Assembly (NCBI RefSeq): GCF_900141715.1
Contig: NZ_FQYK01000003.1
Coordinates: forward strand, 1 to 64,000
Source of the DNA: Algibacter luteus
GTDB lineage: Bacteria; Bacteroidota; Bacteroidia; Flavobacteriales; Flavobacteriaceae
Direction: 5' to 3'
Length of the DNA: 64,000 nt
Shown here: one piece after another, positions 18,595-23,768 of the stretch
How positions within the stretch are numbered: the stretch's first letter is position 1
Layout: each line of letters begins with the position of its first letter
Position numbers and translations under genes: made by a program
The notes under the pieces: generated by a model
What the model was told of the DNA's origin: nothing
The model's database searches: none
Seen by the model: the letters and a program-made list of their open reading frames with translations, nothing else

Positions 18595-18630
18595 TAAAAA
18601 AACGCGAAGTAATTACTTCGCGTTTTTTTT
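18595..18630. terminator. Bidirectional terminator between atpC and the LexA-like gene
   Basis: A long palindrome centred at 18612/18613 (ACGCGAAGTAATTACTTCGCGT core) flanked by A and T tracts on both sides, so it can end both convergent transcripts. Confidence 0.85.
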
Positions 18631-18633
18631 ATG

Positions 18634-19398
18634 CTATTTTTTTATGGATTCTAATTCAATCTTTAATTCTTGAAACATATTCATGATACTGCTTAACTTC
18701 AGTTCATCGGCATCATATTCTTGGGTGTTGATGCAGCAGGTAAACTCCCATAGCTCTATAACATCCTCAATTTTAACATCAAATGGTTGATACATTTTAT
18801 TATCAGAATGCAACTCCAAACTGTTTTTCTCTTCTATTTTATTGTAAACACGCTTGTATACCAAACCATCGCTTTTTGTTAAAACAACATAGGTTCTACC
18901 ATTTTTTACATCGTTTACATTATCAACAAACTTCGCTACAATAAAGGAGCCATCTTTAACAGGAAGCATAGAATCACCACTTATAGGAAATGCTCTGTGC
19001 GTACCTGTTGGTAAAAAAGGGAGTTTTATTTTTTGAAGCTGCTCAATATATTCGGGATCTGCATACCCTTGTAAATAACCTGCCGATGCTTTTGCGGGTA
19101 TAATTTCTATTAAATCTTCATTGGCTTCATTAACTGTAATAGGAAACAATACACGCTTATTCCCTACTTCTATAAACGAGGTGTCTTTAGCGCCGCGTAA
19201 ATCGTTTTTCACTAAAATATCTATAGGAATATCAAAGTAATTAGAAAGCTCTATTAAACGGTCTATTGGTGGTTCTGAACGCCCTTCTTCATACGACCCA
19301 ACCATCGAGCGTGTCCACTTTAATTCTTCAGCAAAACGCTCTTGCGAAAACTTCTTAAGACTTCGTAAGTGTTTTATGTTAGATTGGATATGCTTCAT
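18634..19398 (-). CDS. LexA-like XRE-HTH/S24 self-cleaving repressor
   Basis: A 254-residue regulator with an N-terminal XRE helix-turn-helix (IKHLRSLKKFSQERFAEEL, then TRSMVGSYEEGRSEPP at about 28-45) and a C-terminal S24/LexA peptidase domain. With the ATG at 19398, the self-cleavage site KASAGYL is Ala106-Gly107, the nucleophile Ser143 is in SGDSMLP, and the general base Lys182 is in LVYKRVY. These are the residues of LexA, UmuD and lambda-type CI, so RecA-stimulated self-cleavage is expected but not shown. A start at ATG 19419 is possible, but the minus-strand -7 box at 19429-19436 would leave almost no leader for it. It is divergent from two DNA polymerases and probably represses both directions. 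Confidence 0.9.
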   Translation of the reverse strand: MKHIQSNIKHLRSLKKFSQERFAEELKWTRSMVGSYEEGRSEPPIDRLIELSNYFDIPIDILVKNDLRGAKDTSFIEVGNKRVLFPITVNEANEDLIEIIPAKASAGYLQGYADPEYIEQLQKIKLPFLPTGTHRAFPISGDSMLPVKDGSFIVAKFVDNVNDVKNGRTYVVLTKSDGLVYKRVYNKIEEKNSLELHSDNKMYQPFDVKIEDVIELWEFTCCINTQEYDADELKLSSIMNMFQELKIELESIKK

Positions 19399-19420
19399 TA
19401 TAAAAATAAATTTTAACATT

Positions 19421-19469
19421 ATTTGCTACAAATATAAGCAACAAAAACTACAAATAGTAGCTAATTTTG
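19421..19469. promoter_or_regulatory. Divergent promoter/operator region of the polymerase cassette
   Basis: Minus-strand -7 box TATATTTG (19429-19436) and plus-strand -7 box TAATTTTG (19462-19469) face away from each other. The 9-mer CTACAAATA occurs twice, at 19426-19434 and 19448-19456, exactly 22 bases apart. The first copy sits in ATTTG-CTA-CAAAT (19421-19433) and the second in CTAC-AAATA-GTAG (19448-19460). Two same-facing sites two helical turns apart fit dimers of the adjacent XRE/S24 repressor; that assignment is inferred. Confidence 0.65.
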
Positions 19470-19477
19470 TTAATCCT

Positions 19478-22400
19478 ATGTATTTAAATTGTCACACCTA
19501 TTATAGTTTGCGTTACGGCACCATCGCCCCAAGGCAATTACTTGCTATAGCCTCTGCCAATGGGGCTAATACATTGGCATTAACCGACATTAATAACACA
19601 TCGGCCAGTTTAGATTTTGTGCGACTTTCTGAAAAATATGAAATTAAACCTGTAGTTGGTGTCGATTTTAGAAATGGTGCACAGCAACAATTTGTGTTGT
19701 TAGCAAAAAACAATAACGGGTTTCAAAACATCAACAGCTATCTGTCTACATTTTTACACGATAGTCATTTAAAAATCCCTGAAAAAGCACCTCAGCTTGA
19801 TGACACTTTTGTTATTTATCCGTATAAAAATCAAAACGATTATACACTTAAAGACAACGAGTTTTTAGGCATTAAACCTAAAGACCTCAACGCTCTTAAA
19901 TTTTCAAAATGGAATAAACTACAACATAAACTGGTGGTTTTAAAAACGGTTTCTTTTCAAAATAAAAAAGGATTTAACACCCACCGATTATTGCGTGCTA
20001 TTGATAACAACACCTTATTAAGTAAACTTTCTAAAACAGAAGAAGGCGACCCGAACGATATGATGTTGCCATATAATGAGTTATGTGAAACCTATGAAGA
20101 ATTTCCGCAGCTTATTAAAAACACACAATCTGTTTTAGAAAATTGCCAAATTGAATTCGATTTTTCGCAAGAAGTACCTAACAACCAAAAATCGTATACC
20201 GAAAATGAAGATTCAGATTATACGCTACTTAAAAAATTAACTTACGAAGGCTTACCGTATCGCTATAAAAACCCTGATGATGTGATTTATAATCGCATTA
20301 AAAAAGAACTTGAAATTATTAAAGAAAAAGGGTTTGTATCGTACTTTCTTATTAATTGGCGCATTTTAGAATATGCCCGAAGCAAGGGCTATTTCTACGT
20401 TGGTCGTGGTAGTGGCGCCAATAGTATTGTGGCTTATTTACTTCGCATTACCGATGTAGACCCCATAGAGCTCGATTTGTATTTTGAACGTTTTATAAAT
20501 CTGTATCGTAAAAATCCACCCGATTTTGATATTGATTTTTCGTGGACAGACCGCGACGATATTACCAAATTTATTTTCAAAACCTTTAAAAACACCGCAC
20601 TATTAACGGTTTACAACACCTTTAAGTTTAGAGCTTCAGTGCGCGAATTAGGAAAAGTTTTTGGATTACCTAAATCTGAAATGGATATACTTACTCGAGG
20701 TAAATATCAAATCAATCAGCTTGATAAATTATCGCAATTGGTTATTAAATACAGCGAATACATTCAAGGCTTTCCAAACTATTTAGGTATTCATTCTAGC
20801 GGTATTATTATTTCAGAAAAACCCATTCATTTTTACACAGCCACTTTTTTGCCCCCAAAAAACTTTCCTACCACACATTTTGATATGGTTGTTGCCGAAG
20901 ATATCGGGTTGTATAAATTCGATATCTTAAGTCAACGTGGGTTAGGGAAAATTAAAGATACCGTTGAGATTATAGCCTATAATCATCCTAAAAAAAAGCC
21001 AGTTGATATTCACGATATTAAACGATTTAAAGCAGACGAAAACATTAAACACCTGCTGCGAAATGCCAAAGCTATTGGTTGCTTTTATGTAGAGTCTCCC
21101 GCCATGCGTATGCTACTTAAAAAACTACGCGTTGATACATATTTAGGTTTGGTGGCAGCCAGTTCTATTATTCGTCCTGGTGTTGCAAAATCTGGAATGA
21201 TGCGCGAGTATATTTTGCGCTACCGTTATCCTGAACGCATTAAAGAAGCGCACCCTGTTTTATTAAAAATCATGCCCGAAACATATGGCGTTATGGTGTA
21301 TCAAGAAGATGTTATTAAAGTTGCGCATATTTTTGGTGGATTAACTTTAGGTGAAGCCGATAAACTGCGCAGAGGCATGTCGGGTAAGTTTCGATCGCGC
21401 GACGAATTTTTACAAGTAAAGCAACTCTTTTTTGATAATTGCAAACAAAAAGGAGAACCCGAAACAATAACCAAAGATGTATGGCGCCAAATTGAAAGCT
21501 TTGCTGGTTATGCGTTTGCAAAAGGCCACTCCGCCTCTTATGCTGTAGAAAGCTACCAAAGTCTGTTTTTAAAGGCCTATTACCCATTGGAATATATGGT
21601 AGCAACCATTAATAATTTTGGTGGTTTTTATAGAACCGAACTTTATGTACACGAAGCCAGAATGCATGGTGGTATTATTGAAGCACCATGTATAAACCAC
21701 AGCTTCAATATGGCTATTATTAAAGGAAAAACCATTTATTTAGGTTTTATGTTCTTGCATGCTTTAGAAGCAAAAACCATTGCTAAAATTATTGAAGAAC
21801 GCAGAGGTAACGGCCTTTTTAAAAGTCTAGATGGTTTTATTGAACGCGTCCCTATTTCCATAGAACAAATTTCAATACTCATAAAAATTAATGCATTTAG
21901 GTTTACAGAAATTAATAAACGAGAATTGCTTTGGGAAGCACATCTTAAAATTAGCAAAACAGTTATTCAAGAGCATGTAATAACCTTGTTTAAAACCGAG
22001 CGTATAAATTACAAAACACCAAGATTATCTAGCACCGATTTAGAAAACGCTTTTGATGAAATGGAGTTGTTGGGTTTTCCATTATGCAATCCGTTTCATT
22101 TATTGCAAACCCCAACATCAAACACCATGCGAGCAGAACATTTAATCCATTTGCAAAATAAAACCATTACTATTGAAGGCTATTTGGTAGCCACAAAAAA
22201 CACCCGAACTTCCAACGGAAAAAGCATGCACTTTGGTACGTTTTTAGACTACGATGGTAATTTTATTGATACCGTTCACTTTCCGCCTGTGGCAGCAAAA
22301 TACCCGTTTCGCGGAAAAGGTATTTACAGCATTACAGGAAAAATAATGGTAGAATTTGATTGTGTGACTATTGAAGTTTCGGCTATGGAACGTTCTGCGA

Positions 22401-22537
22401 TTGTTGAAGACCCACGTTATGCTGTAAACTCTTTAAATAGCACTTTTCAGAATAAAAAAAGTTTTGCAGACCATAAAGCAAATCAACTGTCTCCCATGTC
22501 TCCAAAAATAATGAGGCGTACTCCAGAAACATTGTAA
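19478..22537 (+). CDS. DnaE-type DNA polymerase III alpha, short damage-cassette form
   Basis: A C-family polymerase of 1019 residues from ATG 19478 (MYLNCHTYYSLRYG). It has an N-terminal PHP domain (TLALTDINN), the polymerase core with YVGRGSGANSIVAYLL, the catalytic PPDFDIDFSW block near residue 350, and PGVAKSGMM; the fingers region includes GVMVYQEDVIKVAHIFGGLTLGEADKLRRGM. A C-terminal OB-fold (TITIEGYLVATKNT) ends the protein. Replicative DnaE of Bacteroidota is about 1400-1500 residues, so this is an accessory form like DnaE2/ImuC. It is controlled from the gap shared with the S24 repressor and followed 13 bases later by a DinB-type polymerase. The open frame extends upstream to 19376 but that would overlap the repressor gene and both promoters. 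Confidence 0.92.
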   Translation: MYLNCHTYYSLRYGTIAPRQLLAIASANGANTLALTDINNTSASLDFVRLSEKYEIKPVVGVDFRNGAQQQFVLLAKNNNGFQNINSYLSTFLHDSHLKIPEKAPQLDDTFVIYPYKNQNDYTLKDNEFLGIKPKDLNALKFSKWNKLQHKLVVLKTVSFQNKKGFNTHRLLRAIDNNTLLSKLSKTEEGDPNDMMLPYNELCETYEEFPQLIKNTQSVLENCQIEFDFSQEVPNNQKSYTENEDSDYTLLKKLTYEGLPYRYKNPDDVIYNRIKKELEIIKEKGFVSYFLINWRILEYARSKGYFYVGRGSGANSIVAYLLRITDVDPIELDLYFERFINLYRKNPPDFDIDFSWTDRDDITKFIFKTFKNTALLTVYNTFKFRASVRELGKVFGLPKSEMDILTRGKYQINQLDKLSQLVIKYSEYIQGFPNYLGIHSSGIIISEKPIHFYTATFLPPKNFPTTHFDMVVAEDIGLYKFDILSQRGLGKIKDTVEIIAYNHPKKKPVDIHDIKRFKADENIKHLLRNAKAIGCFYVESPAMRMLLKKLRVDTYLGLVAASSIIRPGVAKSGMMREYILRYRYPERIKEAHPVLLKIMPETYGVMVYQEDVIKVAHIFGGLTLGEADKLRRGMSGKFRSRDEFLQVKQLFFDNCKQKGEPETITKDVWRQIESFAGYAFAKGHSASYAVESYQSLFLKAYYPLEYMVATINNFGGFYRTELYVHEARMHGGIIEAPCINHSFNMAIIKGKTIYLGFMFLHALEAKTIAKIIEERRGNGLFKSLDGFIERVPISIEQISILIKINAFRFTEINKRELLWEAHLKISKTVIQEHVITLFKTERINYKTPRLSSTDLENAFDEMELLGFPLCNPFHLLQTPTSNTMRAEHLIHLQNKTITIEGYLVATKNTRTSNGKSMHFGTFLDYDGNFIDTVHFPPVAAKYPFRGKGIYSITGKIMVEFDCVTIEVSAMERSAIVEDPRYAVNSLNSTFQNKKSFADHKANQLSPMSPKIMRRTPETL

Positions 22538-22550
22538 TAGATTTTAAGAT

Positions 22551-23768
22551 ATGAGTTACGAGCGTTCTATTGTTCATATGGATTTAGACACCTTTTTTGT
22601 GTCCTGTGAGCGTTTGCTCGATAGCCGCCTTAATGGAAAACCGGTGCTTATTGGCGGTACTTCTGATAGAGGTGTTGTAGCCTCGTGTAGTTATGAGGCA
22701 CGACGCTTTGGTATACATTCTGCAATGCCTATGCGTTTAGCAAAACAACTGTGTCCGGAAGCGATAATACTTAGAGGTAATTCTGGTGTTTATACCAAGT
22801 TTTCGCAAAATGTTACCGAAGTTATTAAAGAAGCTGTACCCTTATATGAAAAAACATCGGTTGATGAATTTTACATAGACCTTACCGGTATGGATAAGTT
22901 TTTTGGTTGCCATAAACTGGCTTCAGAATTACGCCAACGTATTATAAAAGAAACTGGTTTACCCATTTCGTTTGGGTTGTCTATTAACAAAACCGTTTCA
23001 AAAATAGCCACTGGCGAAGCAAAACCCAATAATGAAATACGCATTCTTTCGGGCACTGAAAAACCTTTTTTAGCACCACTTTCCGTAAAAAAAATACCTA
23101 TGGTTGGCAATGTTACTTACAAAGCCTTGTGCGATTTGGGTGTAAAACGCATTAAAACCGTGCAAGAAATGCCCATGGAACTCATGCATCGTGTACTTGG
23201 ACAAAATGGTTTAAGCATTTGGAAAAAGGCAAACGGAATAGATAATAGTCCTGTGGTTCAATACCACGAACGCAAATCTATTTCAACAGAGCGTACCTTT
23301 AATAAAGACACTACCGATGTTGCCAAATTAAAAGGCATTATTATAGCTATGGCCGAAAATTTAGCCTACCAATTGCGTCGAGGTAACAAATTAACCGCTT
23401 GTGTTACCTTTAAAATTAGATATTCTGATTTTCAAACGTATACACAACAACAACGCATTCCGTATAGCGCTATGGATCATACCATTATTCCTGTGGTATT
23501 AGATTTATACAGAAAACTGTACAACCGTCGTTTATTGGTACGACTTATTGGTGTGAAATTTAGCCATTTGGTTGAAGGCGGACATCAAATTAATTTATTT
23601 GAAGACAATGAAAAACAACTGCACTTAAGTGAAGCTATAGATAAAATGCGCGAACGTTATGGCGATAGGGCAGTAATAAATGCGGCAGGAATGGAGGCCA
23701 AAAGCATTAGTAGATGGAATCCTTTTACAGGCGAACCGCCACCACTTTTAGCGAATAGGAGGCAGTAA
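22551..23768 (+). CDS. Y-family DNA polymerase IV (DinB-type), catalytically complete
   Basis: A 405-residue translesion polymerase. The palm acids are intact: Asp11 in HMDLDTFF and Asp105-Glu106 in TSVDEFYID, so this is not the catalytically dead ImuB of proteobacterial cassettes. The steric-gate region FFVSCERL, the helix-hairpin-helix region (VKKIPMVGNVTYKALCDLGV) and the little-finger domain are visible. A clamp-binding motif, QINLF, lies near residue 347 (GGHQINLFEDN). It starts 13 bases after the accessory DnaE and is likely its partner in error-prone bypass. Confidence 0.93.
   Translation: MSYERSIVHMDLDTFFVSCERLLDSRLNGKPVLIGGTSDRGVVASCSYEARRFGIHSAMPMRLAKQLCPEAIILRGNSGVYTKFSQNVTEVIKEAVPLYEKTSVDEFYIDLTGMDKFFGCHKLASELRQRIIKETGLPISFGLSINKTVSKIATGEAKPNNEIRILSGTEKPFLAPLSVKKIPMVGNVTYKALCDLGVKRIKTVQEMPMELMHRVLGQNGLSIWKKANGIDNSPVVQYHERKSISTERTFNKDTTDVAKLKGIIIAMAENLAYQLRRGNKLTACVTFKIRYSDFQTYTQQQRIPYSAMDHTIIPVVLDLYRKLYNRRLLVRLIGVKFSHLVEGGHQINLFEDNEKQLHLSEAIDKMRERYGDRAVINAAGMEAKSISRWNPFTGEPPPLLANRRQ

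Follow-up and report, generated by a model that had tools for sequence, protein, structure and literature searches.

The locus at positions 18634 to 23768 of the window, by which we mean the whole 64,000-nucleotide stretch of Algibacter luteus DNA analysed here (contig NZ_FQYK01000003.1, positions 1 to 64,000, forward strand), is very likely a Bacteroidota SOS module, in which a repressor paired with CTAC-type operators would be cleaved on a RecA trigger and an accessory DnaE and a DinB polymerase would form a translesion complex. Both the family of the repressor and the pairing of the polymerases have been described for the phylum; the paired CTAC-N5-GTAG switch that they seem to share is a variant that we did not find described. 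The genes and coordinates given in an earlier note on this DNA, an XRE/S24 repressor divergent from a 1019-residue DnaE and a DinB, were confirmed: 79 nt separate the repressor gene from dnaE, and dinB follows dnaE on the plus strand after 13 nt. The features are as follows.

18634 to 19398, minus strand: XRE/S24 repressor, 254 amino acids, related to the non-canonical LexA family of Bacteroidetes, CTAC-dyad promoter class.
19478 to 22537, plus strand: accessory DnaE, probably DnaE2B, 1019 amino acids (Pfam, NCBIfam, tree, residue alignment).
22551 to 23768, plus strand: DinB, a PolY2-type Y-family polymerase, 405 amino acids (Pfam, NCBIfam, alignment, tail profile).
19425 to 19439, no strand: operator-like site A, GCTAC-AAATA-TAAGC, with one weak half-site (sequence; 22-bp pairing with site B in relatives).
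19447 to 19461, no strand: operator-like site B, ACTAC-AAATA-GTAGC, a perfect CTAC-N5-GTAG dyad (sequence; pair in relatives).
19429 to 19436, minus strand: TAnnTTTG box inside site A, facing the repressor gene.
19462 to 19469: TAnnTTTG box abutting site B, facing dnaE.

Dyads A and B share the 79-nt gap and lie 22 bp apart from centre to centre, and the TAnnTTTG boxes are what we take to be the Bacteroidetes -7 element. Such pairs were counted in the named loci, which are the best 80 of at least 586 confirmed relatives of the accessory DnaE, 77 of them having enough upstream DNA. The CTAC pair, spaced by 22 bp, was present in 17 of the 22 promoters in which a class-c repressor lies divergent at no more than 400 bp, in none of the four with a class-g repressor and in none of the 51 with neither, whereas a GGA-N5-TCC pair spaced by 19 bp occurred in 0/22, 4/4 and 17/51, respectively; four of these 51 loci (L112, L117, L135, L160) have an S24 gene farther away or in tandem. 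A tree of 56 repressors, from which the published regulators themselves are absent, yielded two classes that track operator type: the 11 repressors whose own promoter has GGA sites formed one clade (100/99), and all 22 rows labelled CTAC fell within a separate set of 29 (98/86). Starts for this tree were chosen by a rough rule, the S24 piece of L125 was excluded as too short, and the rows carry some redundancy (L056 and L118 come from one genome; L055 and L112 are near copies) and label noise (L053 was typed 'other' despite CTACATTATGTAG in its promoter, and L052 likewise despite half-sites). Among the sampled loci, the type of operator in front of the polymerase genes thus goes with the class of repressor alongside. 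Upstream of dinB in the distant relatives L039 and L040 there are other dyads, TGATACAAATTGTATCA and CTATAAATAATAG, whose sequences suggest further operator drift.

The survey of three-gene synteny that the earlier note had proposed was carried out on the same loci and showed pairing beyond chance, with DinB on the dnaE strand in the fetched flank of 72/80 loci (54 within 300 bp of dnaE, the other 18 at distances of 371 to 2901 bp) and an S24 relative of either class in 30/80. Gene order varied: divergent S24, dnaE, dinB in 15 loci, divergent S24, dinB, dnaE in 13, and S24 in tandem with dinB, dnaE in two; loci without S24 had dnaE, dinB (nine) or dinB, dnaE (33), and dnaE stood alone in eight, seven of which end at a contig end. 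The nearest named relative by DnaE among the matches listed was Hyunsoonleella flava (84%). Across 40 genomes, the source genome included, a full-length relative of the accessory DnaE was found in 20, the others having only a distant match to replicative DnaE, and DinB lay in the fetched flank in 18 of these 20; in G001 (L026) and G037 (L033) the DnaE match contains one in-frame stop apiece. The repressor had matches in 29 of the 40 genomes. The repressor is separable from the polymerase cassette: G014 and G019 carry repressor relatives (65% and 64%) without this accessory DnaE, and G013 combines an 81% identical repressor with a 55% identical DnaE in reversed gene order. In five loci where the repressor stands apart from dnaE, L055 (G013), L057 (G003), L058 (G014), L060 (G019) and L112 (Gelidibacter salicanalis), the next gene after the repressor is an exonuclease gene, that of L058 having RNase_T and GIY-YIG domains and the other four being judged by likeness; this exonuclease type is listed in both published regulons of the Bacteroidetes regulators (PMC8565304). 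On the conjugative-type plasmid pEMTOL01 of Emticicia oligotrophica (L188 2203-7952), a helix-turn-helix gene is divergent from a dinB, dnaE pair, beside an SOS response-associated peptidase, so that the pair can, as far as this record tells, travel on a plasmid.

The earlier note's reading of the regulator as a LexA-like S24 repressor with self-cleavage residues was borne out. HTH_3 and Peptidase_S24 both exceeded the Pfam cut-offs, and the Ala-Gly, Ser and Lys columns, which correspond to Ala106-Gly107, Ser143 and Lys182 (counting Met as 1) and to A105, G106, S142 and K181 of the aligned sequence P0001, in which the Met is missing, were invariant across 26 aligned sequences, that of the window included. 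An alternative upstream ATG at 19419 would give a 261-residue protein. Canonical LexA has the winged-helix domain PF01726, which was absent from the Pfam matches of the window repressor at E 0.001; its N-terminus instead matched HTH_3 and HTH_19 and is CI-like by the PHROGs repressor families. A PDB sequence search gave no match at E 0.001, and a low-confidence model (mean predicted local distance difference test score 67.8, predicted template modelling score 0.51), which served for fold-level matching only, placed LexA at the top in Foldseek, with the lambda and 186 repressors and P22 c2 lower. The suggestion of a regulator peculiar to this locus was not supported: the repressor appears to fit the non-canonical LexA family described for the phylum in 2021, S24 repressors for which operators of two types were reported together with gel shifts and induction by mitomycin C (PMC8565304).

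The accessory DnaE has PHP and C-family polymerase domains (Pfam), and residue alignment showed the residues matching D401, D403 and D555 of E. coli to be present. The PHP His positions of the genome's own DnaE1 are replaced here by N4 and I38; proofreading by this PHP domain is therefore unlikely, to judge from the residues. The mechanically called open reading frame (ORF) begins at 19376 (1053 residues), and the ATG at 19478 that gives 1019 residues encodes a Met in a nearly invariant column of 18 aligned DnaE sequences. Assignment of a subtype by NCBIfam failed: the protein passed the broad TIGR00594 alone (488.2 against a cut-off of 434.35 bits) and missed the cut-offs of both PRK05673 (DnaE) and PRK05672 (error-prone). 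The phylogeny against DnaE1, DnaE2 and DnaE3 that the earlier note had proposed was run against the first two, and in the resulting tree of 27 rows the 16 Bacteroidota rows formed one clade (100/100) separate from six DnaE1 rows and from four DnaE2 rows annotated as error-prone, three of which adjoin a gene annotated as a Y-family polymerase; a long-branch Streptomyces row fell on the DnaE2 side. We consider that the accessory DnaE is probably DnaE2B.

Its partner has IMS and IMS_C domains (Pfam), and D11, D105 and E106, as well as Q346 and F350 of the clamp-type motif QINLF (346-350), were invariant in 17 aligned sequences, so the earlier claim of a Y-family partner with intact catalytic acids held at the level of residues. 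Behind this motif, at about residues 356-380, lies a tail resembling the RecA N-terminus (RecA-NT). A profile of 72 such tails matched the N-terminus of RecA from E. coli at 14.3 bits, a score that none of 2000 shuffles reached, and gave no match to the genome's second DinB. In a weak single-sequence test the shuffle counts were 26 of 5000 with the window DinB and 251 of 5000 with the other, the raw score being 21 for both. From these profile comparisons, a RecA-NT motif in the tail seems likely. Only two proteins of the genome matched PF00817, the window DinB and another DinB-like protein, and neither is of the ImuB type. That imuA is missing, as the earlier note had it, has been probed weakly, by a single ImuA query of the genome that found no match and was run without a positive control.

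Several observations weigh against the reading of the locus as a CTAC-paired SOS module with a RecA-binding polymerase pair. The dyad of site A is imperfect, and the pair rule was fixed after the promoters had been inspected, so that the dinucleotide-shuffle control (CTAC pair in 6/7700, GGA pair in 0/7700) flatters it. Neither pair was found in 5/22 class-c promoters or in 34/51 promoters without a near repressor, and L028 and L162 have a CTAC-type dyad without an adjacent repressor, an arrangement that suits a repressor acting from elsewhere. In the source genome the scanned dyad types were missing at the recA and second dinB loci. The DnaE tree is small, unrooted and without a DnaE2B reference, and the repressor tree drew long-branch warnings in other parts. 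Lastly, the tail profile scored weakly on the genome's own RecA (6.0 bits, a score reached by 6 of 2000 shuffles) and missed the tail of E. coli UmuC, an expected positive (0.0 bits).

We propose that, at this SOS module, dimers of the CI-like S24 repressor would sit on the two CTAC-N5-GTAG-type operators in the 79-bp gap and silence both their own gene and the dnaE-dinB operon that diverges from it. Upon DNA damage, RecA filaments would trigger cleavage at Ala106-Gly107 through Ser143 and Lys182, freeing both promoters, and the accessory DnaE and the active DinB could then act as a translesion complex, the DnaE presumably without proofreading given its degraded PHP site, and DinB contributing the clamp contact and possibly binding RecA through its RecA-NT-like tail where other systems use ImuA. 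Repressor binding, cleavage, induction, complex formation and mutagenesis at this locus are thus what we infer; binding and mitomycin C induction have been published for other members of the family (PMC8565304).

The non-canonical LexA family resembles the system at hand in its S24 domain with Ala-Gly and Ser/Lys residues, its HTH_3 domain and an N5 dyad in its own promoter, and also in the error-prone polymerase genes alongside, the GGA-type regulon including a dinB-dnaE operon under the GGA-N5-TCC motif (PMC8565304). It differs in the operator, published as GGA-N5-TCC or CTAA-N5-TTAG and here CTAC-N5-GTAG, and in that the source genome shows no second exact operator copy. The closest among the published sites that we read is TTAC-AAATT-GTAA of E. 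anophelis, in which the repressor lies opposite an error-prone polymerase gene (PMC8565304). CTAC and GTAG were not found as words in the main text of that paper, whose supplement is said to list diverged palindromes and may include the dyad; in the literature that we searched, we found neither a CTAC-N5-GTAG operator nor a paper that treats Flavobacteriaceae together with the SOS response, mitomycin, DNA polymerase IV and LexA. For the polymerases, a Bacteroidetes pair of PolY2 and DnaE2, both apparently active and with RecA presumed to replace ImuA, was reported in 2019 (PMC6511836), and the system has since been named DnaE2B-PolY-RecA (PMC12926913, 2026). Our accessory DnaE likewise adjoins an acid-intact Y-family polymerase with a RecA-NT-like tail, with no ImuB found, and no feature distinguished it from that system; the gene order of this locus is dnaE-dinB, and many relatives have dinB-dnaE instead. 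The earlier proposal of an undescribed mutasome therefore falls, as the arrangement has already been described under other names (PMC6511836, PMC12926913). Membership of the ImuA-ImuB-DnaE2 type, with which the locus shares an accessory DnaE and a Y-family protein that has a clamp-type motif, was rejected on the intact catalytic acids of DinB (17 sequences), at odds with a dead ImuB, and the window DnaE does not fall in the clade formed by the four sampled rows of error-prone DnaE2. HdiR and UmuDAb are likewise non-LexA S24 repressors that control error-prone polymerases, in minimal regulons made up mainly of these (PMC8565304), but they belong to other lineages, and the polymerases here are an accessory DnaE and a DinB.

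Whole-genome searches of the source assembly (3.38 Mb, 17 contigs, 99.99% complete) found two DnaE proteins, two Y-family proteins, one RecA and one S24 match. That single match is the window repressor, and because of it there is no sign in the genome of UmuD or of a second LexA-like protein. It is plausible, though short of probable, that the repressor is the general SOS regulator of the genome and that its further operators are too degenerate to have been caught by the scanned patterns. Its standing as the only S24 match would suit this, as would the same-class repressors of relatives that lie elsewhere, beside a DnaQ/GIY-YIG exonuclease gene, or that persist in G014 and G019 without the accessory DnaE, and published members run multi-gene regulons (PMC8565304). 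Yet the exact site-A and site-B patterns occur in the source genome in the repressor-dnaE gap only; the recA locus is without scanned dyads, the second dinB locus has just two bare TTTGTAG half-sites, both within ORFs, and no dyad was seen before the counterpart of the exonuclease gene in this genome (40% identity). Three looser patterns were rarer than their reversed controls: CTAC-N5-GTAG occurred at 24 sites (control 49), CTACAWATNNTAG with one mismatch at 164 (control 181), and site B with two mismatches at 105 (control 188). Of the 24 CTAC-N5-GTAG sites, 15 had loci, 14 lying inside a mechanical ORF of at least 100 residues and L014 outside, and the three exact CTACAWATNNTAG matches outside the gap all lie inside ORFs.

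The contrasting possibility, in our estimate a real one although below an even chance, is a one-locus SOS regulon, the repressor controlling its own gene and the dnaE-dinB operon alone. The confinement of exact operators to the gap and the lack of scanned dyads at recA and the second dinB speak for it, and so do the near matches: of the 16 fetched outside the gap, 13 fall within mechanical ORFs at least 100 residues long (L197, L198, L200 and L204 having the near match within 130 nt of the first possible start codon), and no SOS gene was seen beside the three between ORFs (L194, L195, L196), the neighbours of L195 and L196 being an SpoU methylase, a rhomboid protein and an M20 peptidase and those of L194 matching no Pfam family. 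Minimal S24 regulons are known elsewhere in HdiR and UmuDAb, and regulon size varies by Bacteroidetes clade and is small in some (PMC8565304). Against so narrow a reach, the scan covered one genome by pattern and not by calibrated matrix, the two-mismatch sites of CTACAWATNNTAG and of site B were reviewed among the matches listed, and site A with two mismatches gave 14 sites (gap included), that is 13 outside the gap and slightly above the 11 of the reversed control. The pattern scan of this genome points to a very small regulon, and with the genome's single S24 match and its sole exact operator both at this locus, the SOS regulon may have shrunk to the repressor-dnaE promoter region; the local action that the earlier note ascribed to its repressor may to that extent hold in the source genome, the exact operator being at one locus only. 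We regard as rather unlikely the fullest version of this, in which a single divergent promoter region is all that remains of the SOS response in this flavobacterial lineage: the genome's sole LexA-like protein would control just itself and a two-polymerase mutasome by way of a paired CTAC-N5-GTAG operator, as a self-contained, damage-inducible switch for mutagenesis uncoupled from recA. One site-B match with a single mismatch in the same genome falls about 90 nt inside an ORF (L204 1412-2068, C7) whose start looks, by eye, like that of a DnaQ-type exonuclease.

A degenerate prophage remnant, with a phage repressor beside phage-like polymerases, would account for the CI-like N-terminal domain (PHROGs) and for P22 c2 among the lower Foldseek matches. 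We rejected it as highly improbable on the flanking genes, those of ATP synthase beta and epsilon upstream and a GNAT gene downstream, and on synteny, the polymerase pair being conserved across many Bacteroidota genera; each of the 1282 phage records that the DnaE matched was below 60% identity.

Between the ATP synthase epsilon and repressor genes, at 18596-18630 of the window, lies an inverted repeat flanked by A and T runs, by eye likely a shared two-way terminator.

In summary, the reading of this locus as a Bacteroidota SOS module joins, at one place in the genome of A. luteus, two published predictions for the Bacteroidetes, those of their LexA-like repressors and of their DnaE2B-PolY pair. 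Should the one-locus regulon be true, the locus would offer a compact natural case in which to ask what SOS mutagenesis does once separated from the remaining repair response.

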